Shown here one piece after another: positions 33,879 through 44,062 of a stretch of 64,000 bases of DNA. A model generated the notes under the pieces. It did no database searches. It saw nothing but the letters and a program-made list of their open reading frames with translations, and had not been told where the DNA came from. The position numbers and the translations under genes are program-made. The DNA comes from Spirochaetales bacterium (GTDB lineage: Bacteria; Spirochaetota; Spirochaetia; Sphaerochaetales; Sphaerochaetaceae), in assembly GCA_012514185.1 (NCBI GenBank), contig JAAZAT010000129.1:1-64000 (forward strand), read 5' to 3'. How positions within the stretch are numbered: position 1 is the stretch's first letter; the number at the start of each line of letters is the position of its first letter.

Positions 33879-35354
33879 CTATTCTCCTCGATAACAGTTC
33901 AGGTTGAGCGCTTCACAAAGTTGTACCAGGATGGGCCGCATTGCCAGGATTCTCTCTGCTTCCTGGGGCCTCCATACTTGCTGGGCCAACAACATCAGTC
34001 GGGGGAACAGAAGGTACTCGGCCTGACGGGAGGTTGTGATCTGTTCAGTCCACAGATTCCCCTGTGCGCCCAGCACTTGCTCTTTTGCCTGCTCTTGCAT
34101 GGAATCGGGGACGCATGAGAAATGAGATACCTGATTGAGCGTACTGACACCAAGATTTCCCATTTCCTCCTCACTGTCAGCGTGCTTGTAATCAAAGTAA
34201 CAACCAGCTGTATTGGGGCACATGATTACTTGATGCCCACGCTTGCTTGCCTCAAGCCCTCCTTCGGGACCACGCCAGGACATGACGATCAGATCTTTGG
34301 GTAGTCCGAGATGCTCGGTTCCTTCGAGCACTTCGTCCCAGCCGATGGGGCGCTTGCCTGCCTTATGCACCATTTCGCATACCTTGCTCGTCATCCAGCT
34401 CTGCAAAAAGCGTGCATCGGTCAAACCCAACTGCCTCATGCGATCTTGGCAGCGGGGGCACTCCTGCCATGCTGTATGCGGGCACTCATCACCGCCGATA
34501 TGGATATAGGGAGAGCTGAAAAGCTCGGCAATTTGGGTGATGGCATCGCTGAGAAATTCGAGAAGCTCGTTGCTTCCTGCACACATGACATCATCGAAAA
34601 TACCCCAACGGTCTTGCGTCTCATACGGGCCGCCGGTACATCCGAACTCAGGATAGGCTGCAAGCAGGGCAGAGGCATGGCCGGGTGTCTCAATTTCAGG
34701 AACCACCAGTACATGCCTTGCATGGGCATATGCTTGAAGATCGAGGATTTCCTCTTTGCTGTACAATCGGCCGTAGGTCCTGTTGTCGGTGTATTGCAAT
34801 TCCGTGCGCCTGGCGGCGATGCTTGCAAGCTTCGGCCATCCGTCGAGCGGGATGCGCCACCCTTGGTCGTCGGTAAGGTGCCAATGGAAGCGATTAAGAT
34901 GGAACAGCGAAGCAATATCGATGAGTTTTTTCAAAAAGGCGATGGAAAACTGATGCCTGCTGCAGTCAATCATGAAGCCGCGCCATACAAAATCAGGGCT
35001 GTCCTCCACCTTGCAGCAGGGCAGCTGGTTGCCGGTAAGCAGGGCAAGTTTACGGATGGTGCCCAGGCCCCTGAAAGCCCCTTCGTCGGTACTGGCCTTG
35101 ATGACTATCTGAACCTTGCTGATGGTCAGGATGTAGGCTTCCTGCTCCATACCTGCCTGGAATTTGAAGAGTATGTCCTCTCCGCCTGCCTTGCATCCAA
35201 AGACTTCAAGCGCCAGTTGGTGGGTTGTTTCGAACCCCTTCTCAGCAGCGATGGCGATGCGCGGATGTAGACGGAAGAAGCCCTCACGGTCCTCAATGAA
35301 CCTGGGAATGGGAACCAGCAGCTCGCTTGCTTTATACGTATGATGTGTATACAT
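33879..35354 (-). CDS. GH20 beta-N-acetylhexosaminidase
   Basis: WRGFMIDCSRHQFSIAFLKKLIDIASLFHLNRFHWHLTDDQGWRIPLDG; catalytic YIHIGGDECPHTAW; likely start ATG 35354. Confidence 0.93.
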   Translation of the reverse strand: MYTHHTYKASELLVPIPRFIEDREGFFRLHPRIAIAAEKGFETTHQLALEVFGCKAGGEDILFKFQAGMEQEAYILTISKVQIVIKASTDEGAFRGLGTIRKLALLTGNQLPCCKVEDSPDFVWRGFMIDCSRHQFSIAFLKKLIDIASLFHLNRFHWHLTDDQGWRIPLDGWPKLASIAARRTELQYTDNRTYGRLYSKEEILDLQAYAHARHVLVVPEIETPGHASALLAAYPEFGCTGGPYETQDRWGIFDDVMCAGSNELLEFLSDAITQIAELFSSPYIHIGGDECPHTAWQECPRCQDRMRQLGLTDARFLQSWMTSKVCEMVHKAGKRPIGWDEVLEGTEHLGLPKDLIVMSWRGPEGGLEASKRGHQVIMCPNTAGCYFDYKHADSEEEMGNLGVSTLNQVSHFSCVPDSMQEQAKEQVLGAQGNLWTEQITTSRQAEYLLFPRLMLLAQQVWRPQEAERILAMRPILVQLCEALNLNCYRGE

Positions 35355-35388
35355 GGATTCTTGGTAGCACGGCTTTGCCTGCAAGTCA

Positions 35389-35409
35389 AGTTCAAACGTT
35401 GTACAAACT
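35389..35409. promoter_or_regulatory. Candidate ROK operator 1: AGTTCAAACGTTGTACAAACT
   Basis: Reverse complement AGTTTGTACAACGTTTGAACT closely matches the operator at 38544; lies between GH20 and ROK genes. Confidence 0.6.
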
Positions 35410-35425
35410 GGTCGGAAAAATCTGC

Positions 35426-35454
35426 TTGACAGGTGGTCCGGTGGGTGGTAGGCT
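35426..35454 (+). promoter_or_regulatory. Promoter of ROK gene: TTGACA-N17-TAGGCT
   Basis: TTGACA 35426-35431; TAGGCT 35449-35454. Confidence 0.6.
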
Positions 35455-35478
35455 TTGTTTGTACAGAGAGCGAACAAA
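35454..35478. promoter_or_regulatory. Candidate ROK operator 2: TTTGTTTGTACAGAGAGCGAACAAA
   Basis: Imperfect palindrome with the same half-site layout as operators 1 and 3; starts at the last base of the -10. Confidence 0.6.
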
Positions 35479-35536
35479 CCAATGGAAGAGCTTTTCACAC
35501 CAGAACCGAGGTCCTAGACCAAGTATACCGAGGCTT

Positions 35537-36745
35537 ATGAGAATCAACAACAACAATTTCCAGAAGAATGCCAATACCTCGCTGGTTGCCCAGCTTATCT
35601 GGAAGAGTCCGGGGATCAGCAGGGTTGACATCGCACGGGAGCTCAATCTCTACCGTTCGACAGTAACCAACATTATTTCGGCCCTCATCGACGATGAAGT
35701 CGTCTATGAAGGGGAGGAAGGAAGCGGTATGAGCAGGGGAGGCCGCAAGCCGATCATCCTTAGGCTCAACGATAAGTTCGGGTGTGTGGCAGGCTTCGAT
35801 ATCCAGCCGTCCCACTATCGTGCCGTCATTCTCGATATCACCGGAAGCCTTCTTTTTCAGGACAAGGGGAAACTGCCTGAAGTGGATTTTGACGGCATCA
35901 TCAACTTTTTGATGGATATCATCCTGAAGCAAGTCGACAAGCTCGGCATTCCCCTGCTGGCGGTGGTGGCGGGCATTCCCGGCATCGTGGATGCAGAGAA
36001 CGGGGTGATCATCTATGCAGAGCCGTTTGATCTGAGGAATTATGATTTTTACTCCTTCTTCACAAAGAACTATGACGTATTGGTTTTTGTTGAAAATGAC
36101 GCCAACTGCACTGCATGGCTGGAAATGACCATCAACCGCAATGTGAATCTGGGTGATTTCATGTGCATGATCGCCGACTATCATGAGGGAAGCTATCAAT
36201 TCGGCGACCGGGCCGGCATCGGTGTGGGCATCGGTCTTTCCATAGGCGGCAAGGTGTATCATGGGTCCCACCACAGCAGCGGTGAAATCTGCACCTTGAG
36301 TTGGCGGGGGCACAATATCGGCCAGACTGGATTGCCCGAGGACCTGCTGATCCGCTCCGTGCATGACGAAGAAGCTTGGAGGACATGGATGATCGATCTT
36401 TTCAGTTCACTTGTCCCGGTTATCTCCGTTTTCGATCCCAGGGTTTTCTTCATTCACGGCAAGCCCTTCTCGGACGAACAGAAGATCAGGGACTTGCTCG
36501 GTGATGCCTGCCCGCAGTTTTTGGATGTCTTGAAAAAGGTCAATTGCAAGTTGATTTTCGACACCCAGGACGAGTCCGTGGTTGCAAAAGGGGCTGCCAT
36601 GATGTTCCTGCAAAAACTCTTTGCAGTCCCCGAGCTGTCTGAAATCGAAAGCCGAACCCATTTTGACTGGGAGGATGTGGTCGCCCAGGCATATCCGATG
36701 AAGAAGACGTACAGGAAACCCCGGTTGGAGGTTGTGCATGCCTAA
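35537..36745 (+). CDS. ROK family transcriptional regulator (NagC/XylR type)
   Basis: N-terminal wHTH (NTSLVAQLIWKSPGISRVDIARELNLYRSTVTNIISAL) plus ROK domain (GIGVGIGLSIGGKVYHGSHHSSGEI). Confidence 0.93.
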   Translation: MRINNNNFQKNANTSLVAQLIWKSPGISRVDIARELNLYRSTVTNIISALIDDEVVYEGEEGSGMSRGGRKPIILRLNDKFGCVAGFDIQPSHYRAVILDITGSLLFQDKGKLPEVDFDGIINFLMDIILKQVDKLGIPLLAVVAGIPGIVDAENGVIIYAEPFDLRNYDFYSFFTKNYDVLVFVENDANCTAWLEMTINRNVNLGDFMCMIADYHEGSYQFGDRAGIGVGIGLSIGGKVYHGSHHSSGEICTLSWRGHNIGQTGLPEDLLIRSVHDEEAWRTWMIDLFSSLVPVISVFDPRVFFIHGKPFSDEQKIRDLLGDACPQFLDVLKKVNCKLIFDTQDESVVAKGAAMMFLQKLFAVPELSEIESRTHFDWEDVVAQAYPMKKTYRKPRLEVVHA

Positions 36746-37646
36746 GGTGCATACCCTTGCCGACGCCAAGAGAGAGCAGAGAAGAGCCTACTGGACCTTG
36801 GTCCTTCCCGGTTTTTTAATCTATATCTCGGTTATGGCGTTCCCTACGGTTTTTTCCGTGATCCTCAGCTTGACCGACTACAACGGCGGCAGGCTCTTCG
36901 GAGGCAAGCCCGTCTCCTTTGTGGGATTCAAGTGGTACGGCCGGTTGTTTGTGGATGAGTATTTCTACCTTGCGCTGAAGAACAACTTGTGGATAGTGCT
37001 TGTCTCGGTGTTCGGCCAAATTCCACTGGGTTTTTTCCTTGCCTATGTGCTGCACAGGGGATTGGTAAGGTATGGTGATTTTTTCCAGACGATGATCTAT
37101 CTTCCCACGGTAATCTCGACGGTCGTCATCGGTATCTTGTGGAAATCGTTCTTTGCCCCGTATGGAGCCTTCCCTGAGTTGATGCGCCTGTTCAACCCTT
37201 CCTATGAGTACGGGATCAGCAGCCATCCGCTTTTTCCGGTCCTCTTTGTCATTCTCTGGATGTATACCGGCATGTATATGATCATATTCATCGCCAACCT
37301 GCAAAAGATCGACGGATCAGTCATCGAGGCGGCCAAGATCGATGGGGCTTCAGAAGGCCAGACTCTGCGGTATATCATTCTTCCAGCCCTCTCGGGGGTG
37401 CTGGTCGTATCGGCGATACTGGCAATCAGCGGGTCGTTGAAAAGCTTCGACCTGATTTATGTAATGACCGGCGGAGGTCCGGCGAACCGGACCACGGTCC
37501 TATCCATCTATATGTTCGACAAGGCATTCAAGGGTGCCCCCAACTACCCGTTGGCCAACGCGATCAGCACGGTCATGGTACTCATCAGCTTCTCCCTCAT
37601 CGGTCTTACCAAGTGGGTTGAACACAAGTTCGGCGGGAAGGAGTAG
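36738..37646 (+). CDS. Sugar ABC transporter permease (MalF/UgpA class)
   Basis: EAAKIDGASEGQTLRYIILPALSGVL is the EAA loop of CUT1 permeases; ATG 36738. Confidence 0.94.
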   Translation: MPKVHTLADAKREQRRAYWTLVLPGFLIYISVMAFPTVFSVILSLTDYNGGRLFGGKPVSFVGFKWYGRLFVDEYFYLALKNNLWIVLVSVFGQIPLGFFLAYVLHRGLVRYGDFFQTMIYLPTVISTVVIGILWKSFFAPYGAFPELMRLFNPSYEYGISSHPLFPVLFVILWMYTGMYMIIFIANLQKIDGSVIEAAKIDGASEGQTLRYIILPALSGVLVVSAILAISGSLKSFDLIYVMTGGGPANRTTVLSIYMFDKAFKGAPNYPLANAISTVMVLISFSLIGLTKWVEHKFGGKE

Positions 37647-37649
37647 GCG

Positions 37650-38501
37650 ATGCGTGACATCAAGGATACGAAATCGATCGGAGCAAGAATCAATACGGTG
37701 CTCACGTACGTAGTCATGATTTTCTTCACCGTGATGGCAATCTATCCGCTCTTGTGGCTGGTCATGAACTCGTTCAAGACTACCACCGAGTTTCAGATGA
37801 ACAAGCTGGGATTTCCCAAGGAGTGGGTGTTGGTCAACTACCAGGATGCCTGGGTGCGCGGCAAGTTCCCCCGCTTGATCCTCAACAGTTTCATCTATAC
37901 CGGTGTCACCACAGTCGCCACCTTGGTTTTCTCGTTTATGGCAGCCTTCGCCTTTGCAAAGATTCCGAACCGCTCAACCAAGTACCTGCATGGATCGTTT
38001 GTCATTGGATTATTGCTGACGCTGCAATCGATCATGGTGCCACTCTTTCTCATCATCAACTGGGTGGGATTGTACAACACCAGCCTCGGAGTCCTCATTC
38101 CCTATATCGGCATTGCCATGCCCATGGGCATTTATCTCGGTACTGAGTTCATCAAATCCATTCCCGACGCCTTGGTGGAGTCCGCCCGCATCGATGGGGC
38201 GACCTATTGGAAGATATTCATCTCGATCATTGTTCCCATGGCAGCCCCGGTGGCTGTCACGGTGGCCATCATGACAGTGACCGGGACCTGGAATGAGTTC
38301 ATGCTGATCAATATCCTGACCAGCAGTGATGCGTTGAAGAGCCTGCCTGTGGGAGTGCAGAAGTTTGCAGGCGCACTTTCCAGCGACTTTGGAAAACAGT
38401 TTGCAGCCTTGGTCATCGGCCTGGTTCCCATGCTTGTTTTCTATCTGTCATTTCGCAAGGAGATTACCAAAGGAGTTGCCGCAGGTGCGGTGAAGGGCTG
38501 A
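37650..38501 (+). CDS. Sugar ABC transporter permease (MalG/UgpE class)
   Basis: ESARIDGATYWKIFISIIVPMAAP EAA loop; YPLLWLVMNSFKTTTEF. Confidence 0.94.
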   Translation: MRDIKDTKSIGARINTVLTYVVMIFFTVMAIYPLLWLVMNSFKTTTEFQMNKLGFPKEWVLVNYQDAWVRGKFPRLILNSFIYTGVTTVATLVFSFMAAFAFAKIPNRSTKYLHGSFVIGLLLTLQSIMVPLFLIINWVGLYNTSLGVLIPYIGIAMPMGIYLGTEFIKSIPDALVESARIDGATYWKIFISIIVPMAAPVAVTVAIMTVTGTWNEFMLINILTSSDALKSLPVGVQKFAGALSSDFGKQFAALVIGLVPMLVFYLSFRKEITKGVAAGAVKG

Positions 38502-38515
38502 CACATGGTTTTTAT

Positions 38516-38544
38516 TTGACAGCCTGAATAGGTCATGGTAGCAT
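38516..38544 (+). promoter_or_regulatory. Promoter of binding-protein gene: TTGACA-N17-TAGCAT
   Basis: TTGACA 38516-38521; TAGCAT 38539-38544. Confidence 0.6.
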
Positions 38545-38568
38545 TAGTTTGTACAAAGTATGAACTAA
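38544..38568. promoter_or_regulatory. Candidate ROK operator 3: TTAGTTTGTACAAAGTATGAACTAA
   Basis: 25-bp palindrome (TTAGTT..TAC...GTA..AACTAA symmetric) starting at the last base of the -10. Confidence 0.7.
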
Positions 38569-38647: not shown

Positions 38648-40006
38648 ATGACTGGATTCAAGAGAATTTCTGTATTGGCTCTTGCAGTGCTGATGGTCGT
38701 GACATCAGTATTTGCACAGGGAACAAAGGAGGATGCAGCAGCTGGAAAGCAGATTGAGCTTACCGTGCTGAACTACATCGACATGTCCGAACCAAACAGC
38801 GCAAATGATATTACGATGGTTTGGGACAAATTCGAGGCTGAGAACCCCGATATCAAGCTCGTCCGTGAGGACCTGTTCAACGAACCGTTCCACCAGAAGA
38901 CGGAAGCCTACGTCGCCAGCGGCCAGGTGCCCGATGTTCTGTACATGTGGCCCAGCGGACGTTCGACCAGCCTGCACACCACTAAGAGTGTGAAGGACCT
39001 CAAACCGTTCCTCGAGAAGGACGGCCTGTTCGACCAGTACAACCCCGCTACGGTTGCTCCGCAGTTTGCCGGGTATCTGGCCATGCTGCCCAATGGTGTA
39101 ACCACCACCCATATGCTCTATGTCAACACCAAAGTCCTCCGAGACAATGGTCTTGCCATACCCAAGAGCTATGCTGATATGAAGGCCATGGTCGCTCCCC
39201 TCAAGGCAAAGGGCATCGATCTCATTGCCATGGACAACATGGACGCATGGGTGATGCAGAGTTGCTTGTTCTCCATGGTTGTCGGCCGCTTTGGCGGAGT
39301 TGATTGGTATGAGAGGCTTGCCGCCGGCAAGATTTCCTTCACCGATGAGTGGTTCGTCAAATCCCTGGACCTGATCGATGACATGTACAAGTCCGGCATG
39401 ATCAACCGCAACAGCCTGACCAGCCCTTACGGTTCATCCCGTGGTAGTTTCGCCGCCGGCAAGGCAGCATTCTACATCGATGGTGACTGGTCGACCGGAG
39501 CCTTCCAGACCGATATCACCACCGGCAAGGCTTTGATCAGTCCTGCATTGCAGCAGAGCGATTTCGAGTTGATGGTCATTCCCAACCTTCCCGGCGAAGT
39601 CATCCACAATTCAAACAGTGGTGTAGTCGGAACCGGCTGGGGCATGAGCGCCAACATTCCTGCCGGCTCCGCCAAGGAAGCTGCAGCTTGGAGATTGATC
39701 AAGTACCTGCAGGGTGAGTATGTCCAGACCTACCGCCTCTCCACCGGTGCTTCCTTCCCCTCCAACCTCAATGTGGATGTGGAAAAAGTCGTAAAAGAGC
39801 GGAATCTTGAGCCGTTCATCGCCAAGAGAGCTGCATACTATGCAGCCCACACCCCGATCAGTCCGGTCGTCGATGGTGTTCTGCACAGTGATGTGTACAA
39901 CGTGATCAACGTAGGACTACAGGAGATTGGTCTTGGCTCGAAGGCTCCGAAGCAGGTGGCAAGCGAAGTCCAGAAAGCTTGGGATACCTGGAAGAAGAAC
40001 CAGTAA
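38648..40006 (+). CDS. Sugar ABC transporter extracellular binding protein (family 1)
   Basis: Signal peptide ISVLALAVLMVVTSVFAQG; VWDKFEAENPDIKLVREDL; YIDGDWSTGAFQ. Confidence 0.93.
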   Translation: MTGFKRISVLALAVLMVVTSVFAQGTKEDAAAGKQIELTVLNYIDMSEPNSANDITMVWDKFEAENPDIKLVREDLFNEPFHQKTEAYVASGQVPDVLYMWPSGRSTSLHTTKSVKDLKPFLEKDGLFDQYNPATVAPQFAGYLAMLPNGVTTTHMLYVNTKVLRDNGLAIPKSYADMKAMVAPLKAKGIDLIAMDNMDAWVMQSCLFSMVVGRFGGVDWYERLAAGKISFTDEWFVKSLDLIDDMYKSGMINRNSLTSPYGSSRGSFAAGKAAFYIDGDWSTGAFQTDITTGKALISPALQQSDFELMVIPNLPGEVIHNSNSGVVGTGWGMSANIPAGSAKEAAAWRLIKYLQGEYVQTYRLSTGASFPSNLNVDVEKVVKERNLEPFIAKRAAYYAAHTPISPVVDGVLHSDVYNVINVGLQEIGLGSKAPKQVASEVQKAWDTWKKNQ

Positions 40007-40085: not shown

Positions 40086-42584
40086 CTACCTACCGCTGTT
40101 GTACAGGTCGAAGACCTTGAGCTTCTCCCTGAACTGCTTCAGGGTAATTTTCTCCTGGGTCTTGAAGACAACCACCTTTTGGGCGGTAGGCCGGATAGCA
40201 AAGAGGTTGTCGCTGAAAACTCCCTTCAGGTCCTGGGCATCGAGGGCTACTTCAAAGGCGGGATAGGTGCAGCTTACCGTAACGGAGAACCCTCCGCTTA
40301 CTTTCTCCACTTTGGTCTGCAACTGCGGGTCGACCAGTTCACAGGCTTTCGGTTTGTCCAGCAACAGGCAATTCTCGATGTACAGGTCGTCGCTCTTGAG
40401 CTTGATGTAGATGAAGGTTTTCCTCTGATCCAGCTTATGCTTCCTTTTCAAGTCGATGGTGCACATATGGGTGCTGCTCTTCGGTTCGATGGTAAGACGG
40501 TACTCCTGCTTGCCCAGCTTCTGTGCATCAAAGGTACTGAACTTCACCGAGAGCTTGGCATCCTCGACGGCCTTCGGCCCATCGTTGACGATGTAGACCT
40601 CGATCTTACCGTCCTCCTTCTGATAGGCGATCGGCAGGACTGGGGCGTAGAAACGCCTCGCGGCATAGTGCAGCAGCTTCCACTTGCCGGTATAGTCGAT
40701 GGATGACCAGGAAGCGACAGGCCAGTTGTCGTTGAGCTGCCAGTACAGCGTTCCCATACAGTGGGGAAGGGTGGTTCTCCAGTATTCAATAGCCATCTTC
40801 ATCGCAGTAGCCTGCTGCACCTGGCTGAGGTAGAGCATCTGCTCGAAGCTGGTGGGGAAGCGGTAATACCGGCTGAAGTTTTCGATGATGATCGAGTTTC
40901 CCCGTGGATTCTTTTGGTGGTGTTCCATCTCGACGCTGGTCAGGTTCCACATCGACTCTTTGGCATAGGTGGCGACGGTGGAAAGCGAGGGGAAGCTCTG
41001 GTAGCCGAATTCACTGACAAAGCGCGGCTTGATCGTGTAGTACTCCTCGAAGCTTTTCCCTTCATGCCAGACCGACCAGAAGTGCATGTCGCCTCGTTTA
41101 TCGCTGTGCCAGTTGTCGGAGAAATCCCCCTCTCCGGCCGAGGGGCTGCTGGGCCACCAGGTACGGCCCGGGTCGAGTTCCTTGATGACTTTGCCGACGA
41201 CACCCTCGTTGAGGCGGTCGTAGTCGATGACATAGCGGTCCCGGCTTTTGCGCGATTCCTCGTACCAGCTGATGGCTCCCAGGTCTTCGTTGTTGCCGCA
41301 CCACAATGCCAGGCACGGGTGGTCGTGCAGGCGGCTCACCTGATAACGCAGCTCTGCTTCGACGCTCGCAAGGAAGGCTGGATCGGAAGGGTACATCGAG
41401 CAGCTGAACATGCAGTCCTGCCATACCAATAGGCCCTTCTCGTCACAGAGCTCATAGAAGTCCTCTTTTTCGTACAGGCCGCCTCCCCAGACGCGCACCA
41501 TGTTCATGTTCGCATCAATGGCATGCTGCAGCAGCTGTTCATACCGTCCACGCGTGAGCCGGCCCATGAAGGCGTCCAGGGGTATCCAATTGGCACCTTT
41601 TGCAAAGATGTCCCGGCCGTTCACCGAGAAGACCATGCCCTTTCCACCTTCTGCATCTTCCTCGGTCTTGACTTCCAAGGTCCTGAAGCCGATGCGTTTG
41701 GTCGCTTTCTGAGCGCCGATGGCAAGCTCTAGTGGATACAATACAGCCTTGCCCTCGCCGTTGGGCCACCATCGGTGTACTTGGTTGCAGACAAGGTGGA
41801 ACGTTATTTTGTTCAGCCCGACGTGGGTCTCGATGGTTCCCGTTTGTGAGGCGTTGGCGCAGCTTGCACTGCAAGGCAGGCAGTGTGCTTTTTTTGCATT
41901 GAACACTACGTCGACAACCAAATCCCAGCTGTCATCTCCAAGCGGCTTCCCAGTAGAAGTGATGCTCTCAATGATTCCTTCGTCGACGAAAGCGAGCTGG
42001 ATCGGTTCATAGATGCCGAAGCTCAAGATGCATGGACCCCAATCCCAGCCGCTGTGGCACTGGGTCTTTCGAACAAGGTTGCGATGCTTGGCCGATACCG
42101 GATACACCGAGTAGGGGATGGGGTAAGGAAGCTTCTCTGCAAGAGCTGTGGCATGGGCTTCTGCACTGGTAAAGATTAATTTGATGGAGTTTTCCCCGAT
42201 ATTCAGTGCATCACTGATATCAAAACGCCAGCGCCTGAACTGATTGTCGCAGCTGCCGACCTGCTTGCCGTTCACCCATACACTGATGATGGTGTCGGCC
42301 ATGGTCAGGGTGAGGACTGCACTTCTGTCGGCGAGCATCTCCTCTGGAATCAGGAAGGTTCGCTCAAGGATCCAATCATTGCGGCCGACCCATTGGATGT
42401 CCAGTTCCTGTGTTCCGATATAGGGATCGATGATGACCGAGCTTTCGAGCAGGGCTGAGTGAATATCACCTGGCAGGGTGCAAGGTATATGGGTATGGTT
42501 TTGGAAATATTTGGTAAAAGGAGCAATCTTCTCATAAGAGAGTGGTGAGAGTTTCCAGACTCCATTGATATCGAGTGTAAGCAT
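40086..42584 (-). CDS. GH2 beta-mannosidase
   Basis: ALWCGNNEDLGAISWY (acid/base NE), RFVSEFGYQSFPSLSTV (nucleophile E), beta-mannosidase-like architecture; likely start ATG 42584. Confidence 0.88.
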   Translation of the reverse strand: MLTLDINGVWKLSPLSYEKIAPFTKYFQNHTHIPCTLPGDIHSALLESSVIIDPYIGTQELDIQWVGRNDWILERTFLIPEEMLADRSAVLTLTMADTIISVWVNGKQVGSCDNQFRRWRFDISDALNIGENSIKLIFTSAEAHATALAEKLPYPIPYSVYPVSAKHRNLVRKTQCHSGWDWGPCILSFGIYEPIQLAFVDEGIIESITSTGKPLGDDSWDLVVDVVFNAKKAHCLPCSASCANASQTGTIETHVGLNKITFHLVCNQVHRWWPNGEGKAVLYPLELAIGAQKATKRIGFRTLEVKTEEDAEGGKGMVFSVNGRDIFAKGANWIPLDAFMGRLTRGRYEQLLQHAIDANMNMVRVWGGGLYEKEDFYELCDEKGLLVWQDCMFSCSMYPSDPAFLASVEAELRYQVSRLHDHPCLALWCGNNEDLGAISWYEESRKSRDRYVIDYDRLNEGVVGKVIKELDPGRTWWPSSPSAGEGDFSDNWHSDKRGDMHFWSVWHEGKSFEEYYTIKPRFVSEFGYQSFPSLSTVATYAKESMWNLTSVEMEHHQKNPRGNSIIIENFSRYYRFPTSFEQMLYLSQVQQATAMKMAIEYWRTTLPHCMGTLYWQLNDNWPVASWSSIDYTGKWKLLHYAARRFYAPVLPIAYQKEDGKIEVYIVNDGPKAVEDAKLSVKFSTFDAQKLGKQEYRLTIEPKSSTHMCTIDLKRKHKLDQRKTFIYIKLKSDDLYIENCLLLDKPKACELVDPQLQTKVEKVSGGFSVTVSCTYPAFEVALDAQDLKGVFSDNLFAIRPTAQKVVVFKTQEKITLKQFREKLKVFDLYNSGR

Positions 42585-42676
42585 ACGGGCGCCTCCGATT
42601 GCTGAGTATAGCACACACAGCCTGTCGTGCGTCGAAAAAGCTTGAGGGCCGCATCCCTCCAACCTATACTGTTGCC

Positions 42677-44062
42677 ATGTGGCAAAAGCCGGACATGCAT
42701 GATAAAGCTTTACGATATGAGGCGCATGACAGACAAGAAAAATCTCAGATTCTGCTGGCATTGCTGCAAGCCCTGCTTATTACCGCATGTCTTTTGCTGA
42801 TAACCTATACGCTGTTTGATGGATGGCGTGAACGACTGGTTGAGCGGGGCAGGCAGGCAGGCAGGACCGAGCTACTGGGCATCCGGAAGAACCTTTTTCT
42901 ACTGATGGGCAACCAGGAGATGTTTACCGCATTGTTCGGTCAAAGGCTTGAGGAGAGCCTTGCCGCAGGATTGGACGTAAACCTGTCCGAGCTTGCTTCC
43001 TATCTTACGTATCTGGAGCACACACACCCTTCTTTTGCTTTTGCAACCATCACCAGGGAGAGTGTGCTGACCGATAGCTACTTTCGACAAGGCTTGCATG
43101 CGTTCGATTTCGATGTGGAGACCCTGGTCCACTATGAGGAGCATATCGGCTATACCTTGCAAATGCAGGATGTCACCCTGGACGGTCCGTTGCAGGGAGA
43201 GAATGGAACCTCCTATCTGGTAAGCAGGTATGCCTTGCATGACCCCGATGGACTCTGGGGCCTCTTGACCTTGCATTTTGACTTCAAGCAGGTGCTCAAC
43301 GAGGCTGGAGTCGAGGAGGTGGGAGAGGATTACCGGGTGTTTTTCACCTTCGTTCATGGTTCTGACAAAGAAAGCTTTGATTGGGGGGATGCTACAACAT
43401 CCAATGAGGAAGCAGTTGTCATGGATCTCTCCTACTCCCTGTTGAAGTGGCGGATGCAGATAGTCCCGACCGACTCGTGGATTGAATTTTCGCTGCCGCT
43501 TTTCTTGTATGGAATCGTCAGTACGCTGGTTTGCATCGCCATCGGGGTATTCATCTACCTCTACCAAATCAAGTTCCAGATCTTCAAGACCCGTTCACGT
43601 ACCGACAGCATGACCGGACTGCTCAACCGGAGGGAGTTTGAGATACTGCTCCATCAAACCTGCATAAGCGGAGAACCCTTTGCCGTTGCCTTGATCGATA
43701 TCGACAACTTCAAGGAAATCAATGATGTCCACGGGCATCTCAACGGCGATAAAGCCTTGCTTTCATTGGTTGGAAACCTGAAGCAACACATTCGCATGAG
43801 TGATGCACTTGCACGATTCGGCGGGGATGAGTTCATCCTGCTGTTTCATGGTTGCACACGTGTCGATTTCTGCAAACGCCTTTTCCAAGACATCGCTCAT
43901 ACCCGTGTCGATCTGGATGGAGAGCAGGTGGAGGTGGTGATCAGCATGGGTGTAGTCCTGTCCGATGAACACTCTCAGGCACAAGCCCTGGTCAAGATTG
44001 CAGATCGAAGGCTCTATCAAGCCAAGCAGGACGGCAAGGGAAGGATCTGTACAAGCGGCTGA
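42677..44062 (+). CDS. Membrane-anchored diguanylate cyclase (GGDEF)
   Basis: Two TM segments flanking a sensor region; DSMTGLLNRREFE ... LARFGGDEFILLF. Confidence 0.92.
   Translation: MWQKPDMHDKALRYEAHDRQEKSQILLALLQALLITACLLLITYTLFDGWRERLVERGRQAGRTELLGIRKNLFLLMGNQEMFTALFGQRLEESLAAGLDVNLSELASYLTYLEHTHPSFAFATITRESVLTDSYFRQGLHAFDFDVETLVHYEEHIGYTLQMQDVTLDGPLQGENGTSYLVSRYALHDPDGLWGLLTLHFDFKQVLNEAGVEEVGEDYRVFFTFVHGSDKESFDWGDATTSNEEAVVMDLSYSLLKWRMQIVPTDSWIEFSLPLFLYGIVSTLVCIAIGVFIYLYQIKFQIFKTRSRTDSMTGLLNRREFEILLHQTCISGEPFAVALIDIDNFKEINDVHGHLNGDKALLSLVGNLKQHIRMSDALARFGGDEFILLFHGCTRVDFCKRLFQDIAHTRVDLDGEQVEVVISMGVVLSDEHSQAQALVKIADRRLYQAKQDGKGRICTSG

Follow-up and report, generated by a model that had tools for sequence, protein, structure and literature searches.

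A predicted local ROK-family regulon with XylR-like palindromic operators at a GH20 and sugar ABC transporter locus in Sphaerochaetaceae

We analyzed a 64,000-nucleotide stretch of DNA (the window), in which an earlier note had pointed to a shared palindromic operator at a locus for sugar uptake and hydrolysis. Five genes make up the locus.

33879–35354, minus strand: GH20 beta-N-acetylhexosaminidase gene (491 aa, no obvious signal peptide; Pfam PF00728, 2.3e-101)
35537–36745, plus strand: predicted ROK-family repressor gene (402 aa; Pfam ROK 2.7e-12, HTH_24 6e-06)
36738–37646, plus strand: CUT1-type sugar ABC permease 1 (Pfam PF00528, 1.2e-20), whose start overlaps the 3' end of the ROK gene
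37650–38501, plus strand: sugar ABC permease 2 (Pfam PF00528, 5.3e-16)
38648–40006, plus strand: periplasmic sugar-binding protein of an ABC transporter (Pfam SBP_bac_8, 1.1e-20)

In PDB searches, the GH20 protein matched GH20 hexosaminidases (down to 5.5e-106), and the binding protein was equally close to NagB1, which binds chitin oligosaccharides, and XylA (1.9e-17). The ROK protein starts with a winged helix whose recognition helix reads LYRSTVTNI, and it scored above the cut-off for both profiles (PF00480, 47.3 bits against 22.9; HTH_24, 26.2 bits against 21.9). In many Sphaerochaeta loci a GH2 beta-mannosidase-like gene (40086–42761, minus strand) is convergent to the binding-protein gene. 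We rejected it as an operator target, its start region being without a site; perhaps it serves the same pathway under different control.

All three palindromes were found at the regulatory positions claimed for them, each next to a promoter.

35361–35389, minus strand: GH20 promoter (TTGACT at 35389–35384, 17 bp, TACCAA at 35366–35361, 6 nt, ATG at 35354)
35389–35409, minus strand: operator 1, AGTTTGTACAACGTTTGAACT, touching the -35 element of the GH20 promoter and centered at about -45
35426–35454, plus strand: ROK-operon promoter (TTGACA at 35426–35431, N17, TAGGCT at 35449–35454)
35454–35478, plus strand: operator 2, TTTGTTTGTACAGAGAGCGAACAAA, spanning -7 to +18 of the ROK promoter
38516–38544, plus strand: binding-protein promoter, conserved in relatives (TTGACA at 38516–38521, N17, TAGCAT at 38539–38544)
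38544–38568, plus strand: operator 3, TTAGTTTGTACAAAGTATGAACTAA, spanning -7 to +18 of the binding-protein promoter

The sequence agrees with the common design proposed for operators 2 and 3, in which TTGACA-N17-TAGNNT is followed by a palindrome that begins at the last -10 base. The idea of one operator at three positions held for the presence of the sites but not for their placement, as operator 1 has a geometry of its own: read on the minus strand, its last base is also the first T of TTGACT, which places it upstream of the -35 element and away from the -10 element. Similarly, the proposed consensus AGTTyGTAC-N3-GTryGAACT stood as a palindrome but not in its strict form, which we refined to the 25-bp WWWGTTTGTAC-N3-(less conserved)-YRAACWWW. 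Because the ROK and permease 1 genes overlap, operator 2 would control both.

We scanned for the motif by pattern matching. In the window alone, there were three matches against 0.93 expected, a number only weakly above chance that was reached in 5 of 100 shuffles. Across the window's own genome assembly (2.76 Mb, 86% complete), AGTTTGTACN6TGAACT had exactly two perfect matches, both at the ROK locus. No sequence differed from it by one or two mismatches, and sites with three mismatches were fewer than for the reversed control pattern. The three palindromes were seen nowhere else in this genome, in line with the view that the motif is not common genome-wide. Near-matches in this genome and in relatives (C100, C57, G110, and G091 near 2.178 Mb) were dropped, as they fall within coding genes or at their margins.

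At a threshold of E < 1e-60, 43 of 139 family genomes carry an orthologue of the ROK gene, and 42 ROK loci were fetched and oriented; the relatives named below belong to Sphaerochaeta species or are Sphaerochaetaceae assemblies. Searching for WGTTTGTACANNGWRYRAACWA, the ROK/binding-protein operator in a 22-nt form, gave 51 exact matches in 31 of the 139 genomes, all of them at the ROK locus, and its reversed control gave none in the same 139. With G133 included as a carrier, the 22-nt form is present in 31 of 44 genomes that have the ROK gene and in 0 of 95 that do not (one-sided Fisher 5.9e-21; shared ancestry is ignored, and the statistic overstates independence because the genomes are related). 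The co-occurrence is exact: two candidate exceptions, G112 and G133, were rejected since contig breaks fall within their ROK loci. We also compared the best-site score, using a consensus derived from the window's own sites, with the maximum of 1075 shuffled regions. In 39 of 41 loci the region before the ROK gene scored higher than this maximum, and in 30 of 34 the region before the binding-protein gene did. The two ROK-upstream regions that fell below were that of L094, a ROK homologue without ABC genes or a site, and that of L099, where the site belongs to the divergent gene.

Mean pairwise identity among Sphaerochaeta and near genera was 0.97 for operator 3, against 0.41 for the rest of its region, and 0.95 for operator 2, against 0.43. 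Operator 1 is less conserved (0.83 in Sphaerochaeta, with the rest of the regions at 0.41–0.43), and one Sphaerochaeta genome (L076) lacks it. Because they are conserved in relatives, the palindromes lie far beyond chance. The promoter register is kept as well: TTGACA-N17-TANNNT with the operator at the last -10 base occurs throughout Sphaerochaeta and in several other genera. For the ROK gene, 30 of 41 promoters have the operator starting at this base, and for the binding-protein gene 21 of 34 do; many of the non-conforming promoters have no -10 element fitting the strict pattern. Operators of other genera hold an equal register even where the ROK proteins are 42–53% identical, and in L085 the register is kept although the binding-protein gene is inverted. 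The expected conservation upstream of orthologous genes was therefore borne out in Sphaerochaeta and other genera, down to a ROK identity of about 43%.

Relatives also showed variants of the locus. In L073 (4317–8929) and L079, another ABC transporter stands in place of the permease and binding-protein genes that otherwise follow the ROK gene. In L073 a second ROK paralogue precedes this transporter, and both genomes retain the operators in front of their first ROK gene. In some Sphaerochaeta (L152, 2950–3195; L162; L169), an unlinked GH1 beta-glucosidase gene has a degenerate similar site about 120 nt upstream. This site reads TTAGTTTGTACACCGAAAGAACTTT in G091 and is absent from most other species, and we did not find the unlinked GH1 gene in the window's own assembly.

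The GH20 promoter has a rigid layout, with the spacing TTGACN-N17-TANNNN-N6-ATG exact in 21 of the 22 loci of the genus that have a divergent GH20. In many relatives, an in-frame stop three codons upstream indicates that translation does begin at this ATG, and together with the fixed distance from the -10 element it places the predicted transcription start on the ATG itself, so that the GH20 mRNA is predicted to be leaderless. In no species does the -10 element (TACCAA or TAGGAC) have the usual final T at -7. Roughly half the species carry TACCAA and lack a Shine-Dalgarno sequence at GH20, and the others have TAGGA, which might act as one. A second copy of the GH20-type operator, GTACAAAGGTTGTACATACT, was seen in L074, where about 145 bp more separate GH20 and the ROK gene than in relatives.

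Because operator 1 lies upstream of the -35 element, the sign of GH20 regulation is less certain than that at the other two promoters. The ROK protein might be a dual regulator that represses its own and the binding-protein promoters and activates GH20 from about -45. The contact of operator 1 with the upstream side of the -35 element, the poor -10 element and the invariant spacing all speak for such activation, but overlap with the -35 element fits repression equally. Other genera either place GH20 after the binding-protein gene or have GH1 as the divergent gene, whose operator precedes the -35 element, at about -50 in L087 and about -57 in L099. These distances do not keep to one helical face as an activator needs, and their variation argues for repression over activation from a fixed position. 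We consider dual regulation unlikely. A related proposal, that the ROK protein works through two architectures, roadblock operators at -7 to +18 of its own and the transporter promoters and an operator at -45 joined to the -35 element of the leaderless GH20 promoter, which possibly activates the hydrolase or sets another induction threshold, is speculative and has perhaps an outside chance of being correct. Looping through helical phasing of operators 1 and 2 was unsupported (distances of about 56–111 bp; Rayleigh p of about 0.11).

Which protein reads these sites? The neighboring gene product has a ROK domain with an N-terminal winged helix-turn-helix, and palindromes of about 20–25 bp lie at its own promoter and at those of neighboring sugar genes, both as in ROK-family repressors. 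PDB searches placed it as a distant relative of Staphylococcus aureus XylR, Mlc/NagC and Lmo0178. It shares its domain order with the ROK repressors NagC and Mlc of enterobacteria, and NagC was its best NCBIfam match, although at 64.7 bits against a cut-off of 650 (NF047937) it falls outside the NagC equivalog. NagC is a global regulator; the regulon here is local, and its operators differ from that of NagC/Mlc.

Judged by their bases, the operators instead resemble those of the ROK protein XylR. This regulator, present in Bacillus subtilis and other Firmicutes, is likewise a repressor with a winged-helix N terminus, and the B. subtilis xyl operator, TTAGTTTGTTTGGGCAACAAACTAA, is 25 bp long with ten palindromic bases per arm around five central ones (PMC12034463). 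The 25-bp layout is common to both systems. The xyl operator and operator 3 are identical at 16 of 25 bases, including the outer arm TTAGTTTGT, and differ in their inner arms, with GTTTGTAC here and GTTTGTTT in the XylR operator. These inner bases vary with the protein. Among orthologues, the recognition helix LYRSTVTN pairs with GTTTGTAC, and LNKSTVSN pairs with GTTTGTTC in most loci of genus g11; L093 fits the pairing at one of its two sites. Such covariation, probably a single evolutionary event, is what one would expect of an operator read by the ROK protein.

A regulator encoded elsewhere might bind the sites with the ROK gene an incidental neighbor, and the genome does have five further ROK-domain proteins. 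We regard this as improbable, given that the sites are confined to genomes carrying the ROK gene, where they always adjoin it, that operator and recognition helix covary and that the operator resembles that of XylR. Operators 2 and 3 are palindromic and sit at predicted transcript 5' ends, as RNA hairpins or attenuators would, but their conservation is of sequence, beyond pairing alone, and a role in RNA is very unlikely because operator 1 precedes the GH20 promoter and would fall outside the GH20 mRNA. Chance similarity among AT-rich promoter sequences, for which only the window shuffles could speak, is refuted by the family-wide conservation and the empty reversed control, and we give it practically no weight.

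We therefore favor, with high confidence, the reading that the three palindromes are operators of the ROK protein encoded at 35537–36745, which would be an autoregulated, sugar-released repressor of a local regulon. The regulon, on the best reading, comprises the repressor and permeases, the binding protein and GH20. The autoregulation and the control of hydrolase and transporter suggested by the earlier note are supported by conserved sites that track the ROK gene and by the XylR-like operator. We infer that, without its sugar ligand, a ROK dimer would occupy operators 2 and 3 and block RNA polymerase, which would amount to autoregulation and transporter control, and that a dimer on operator 1 would most likely exclude sigma from the GH20 -35 element. 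An imported oligosaccharide, probably with GlcNAc, would then release the protein and turn on uptake and intracellular hydrolysis together. Relief of repression by sugar is the standard ROK scheme and, by analogy, fits the anatomy of the locus.

The inducer is probably a GlcNAc-containing oligosaccharide, as suggested by the GH20 enzyme and by a binding protein as close to NagB1 as to XylA. Xylose is an unlikely ligand. XylR controls xylAB, whereas the genes here are GH20 and an ABC transporter, and our pattern scans, which place no operator outside the ROK locus, gave no sign of control over xylose isomerase or xylulokinase. A GlcNAc sugar is less clearly indicated by some other genera, in which GH1 and cellobiose-phosphorylase-like GH94 genes adjoin the locus. 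The nearest functional parallel, by analogy of gene content, is ChiR of Thermotoga, whose DNA binding is released by chitobiose (PMC3750489) and whose regulon, likewise local, combines a chitobiose hydrolase with an ABC transporter (chiEFG). The ChiR operon includes nagAB, whereas here nagA lies elsewhere in the genome without an operator match.

Overall, our sequence comparisons support well a locally acting ROK regulon that appears to be real and an ordinary kind of bacterial gene switch. The papers searched describe no ROK operator for Sphaerochaetaceae, and the family thus gains a regulon defined at the motif level, together with a predicted cognate regulator. The transporter and GH20 become assignable to one inducible pathway, and the series of ROK orthologues and operators offers a natural set for matching changes in the recognition helix to changes in the operator.
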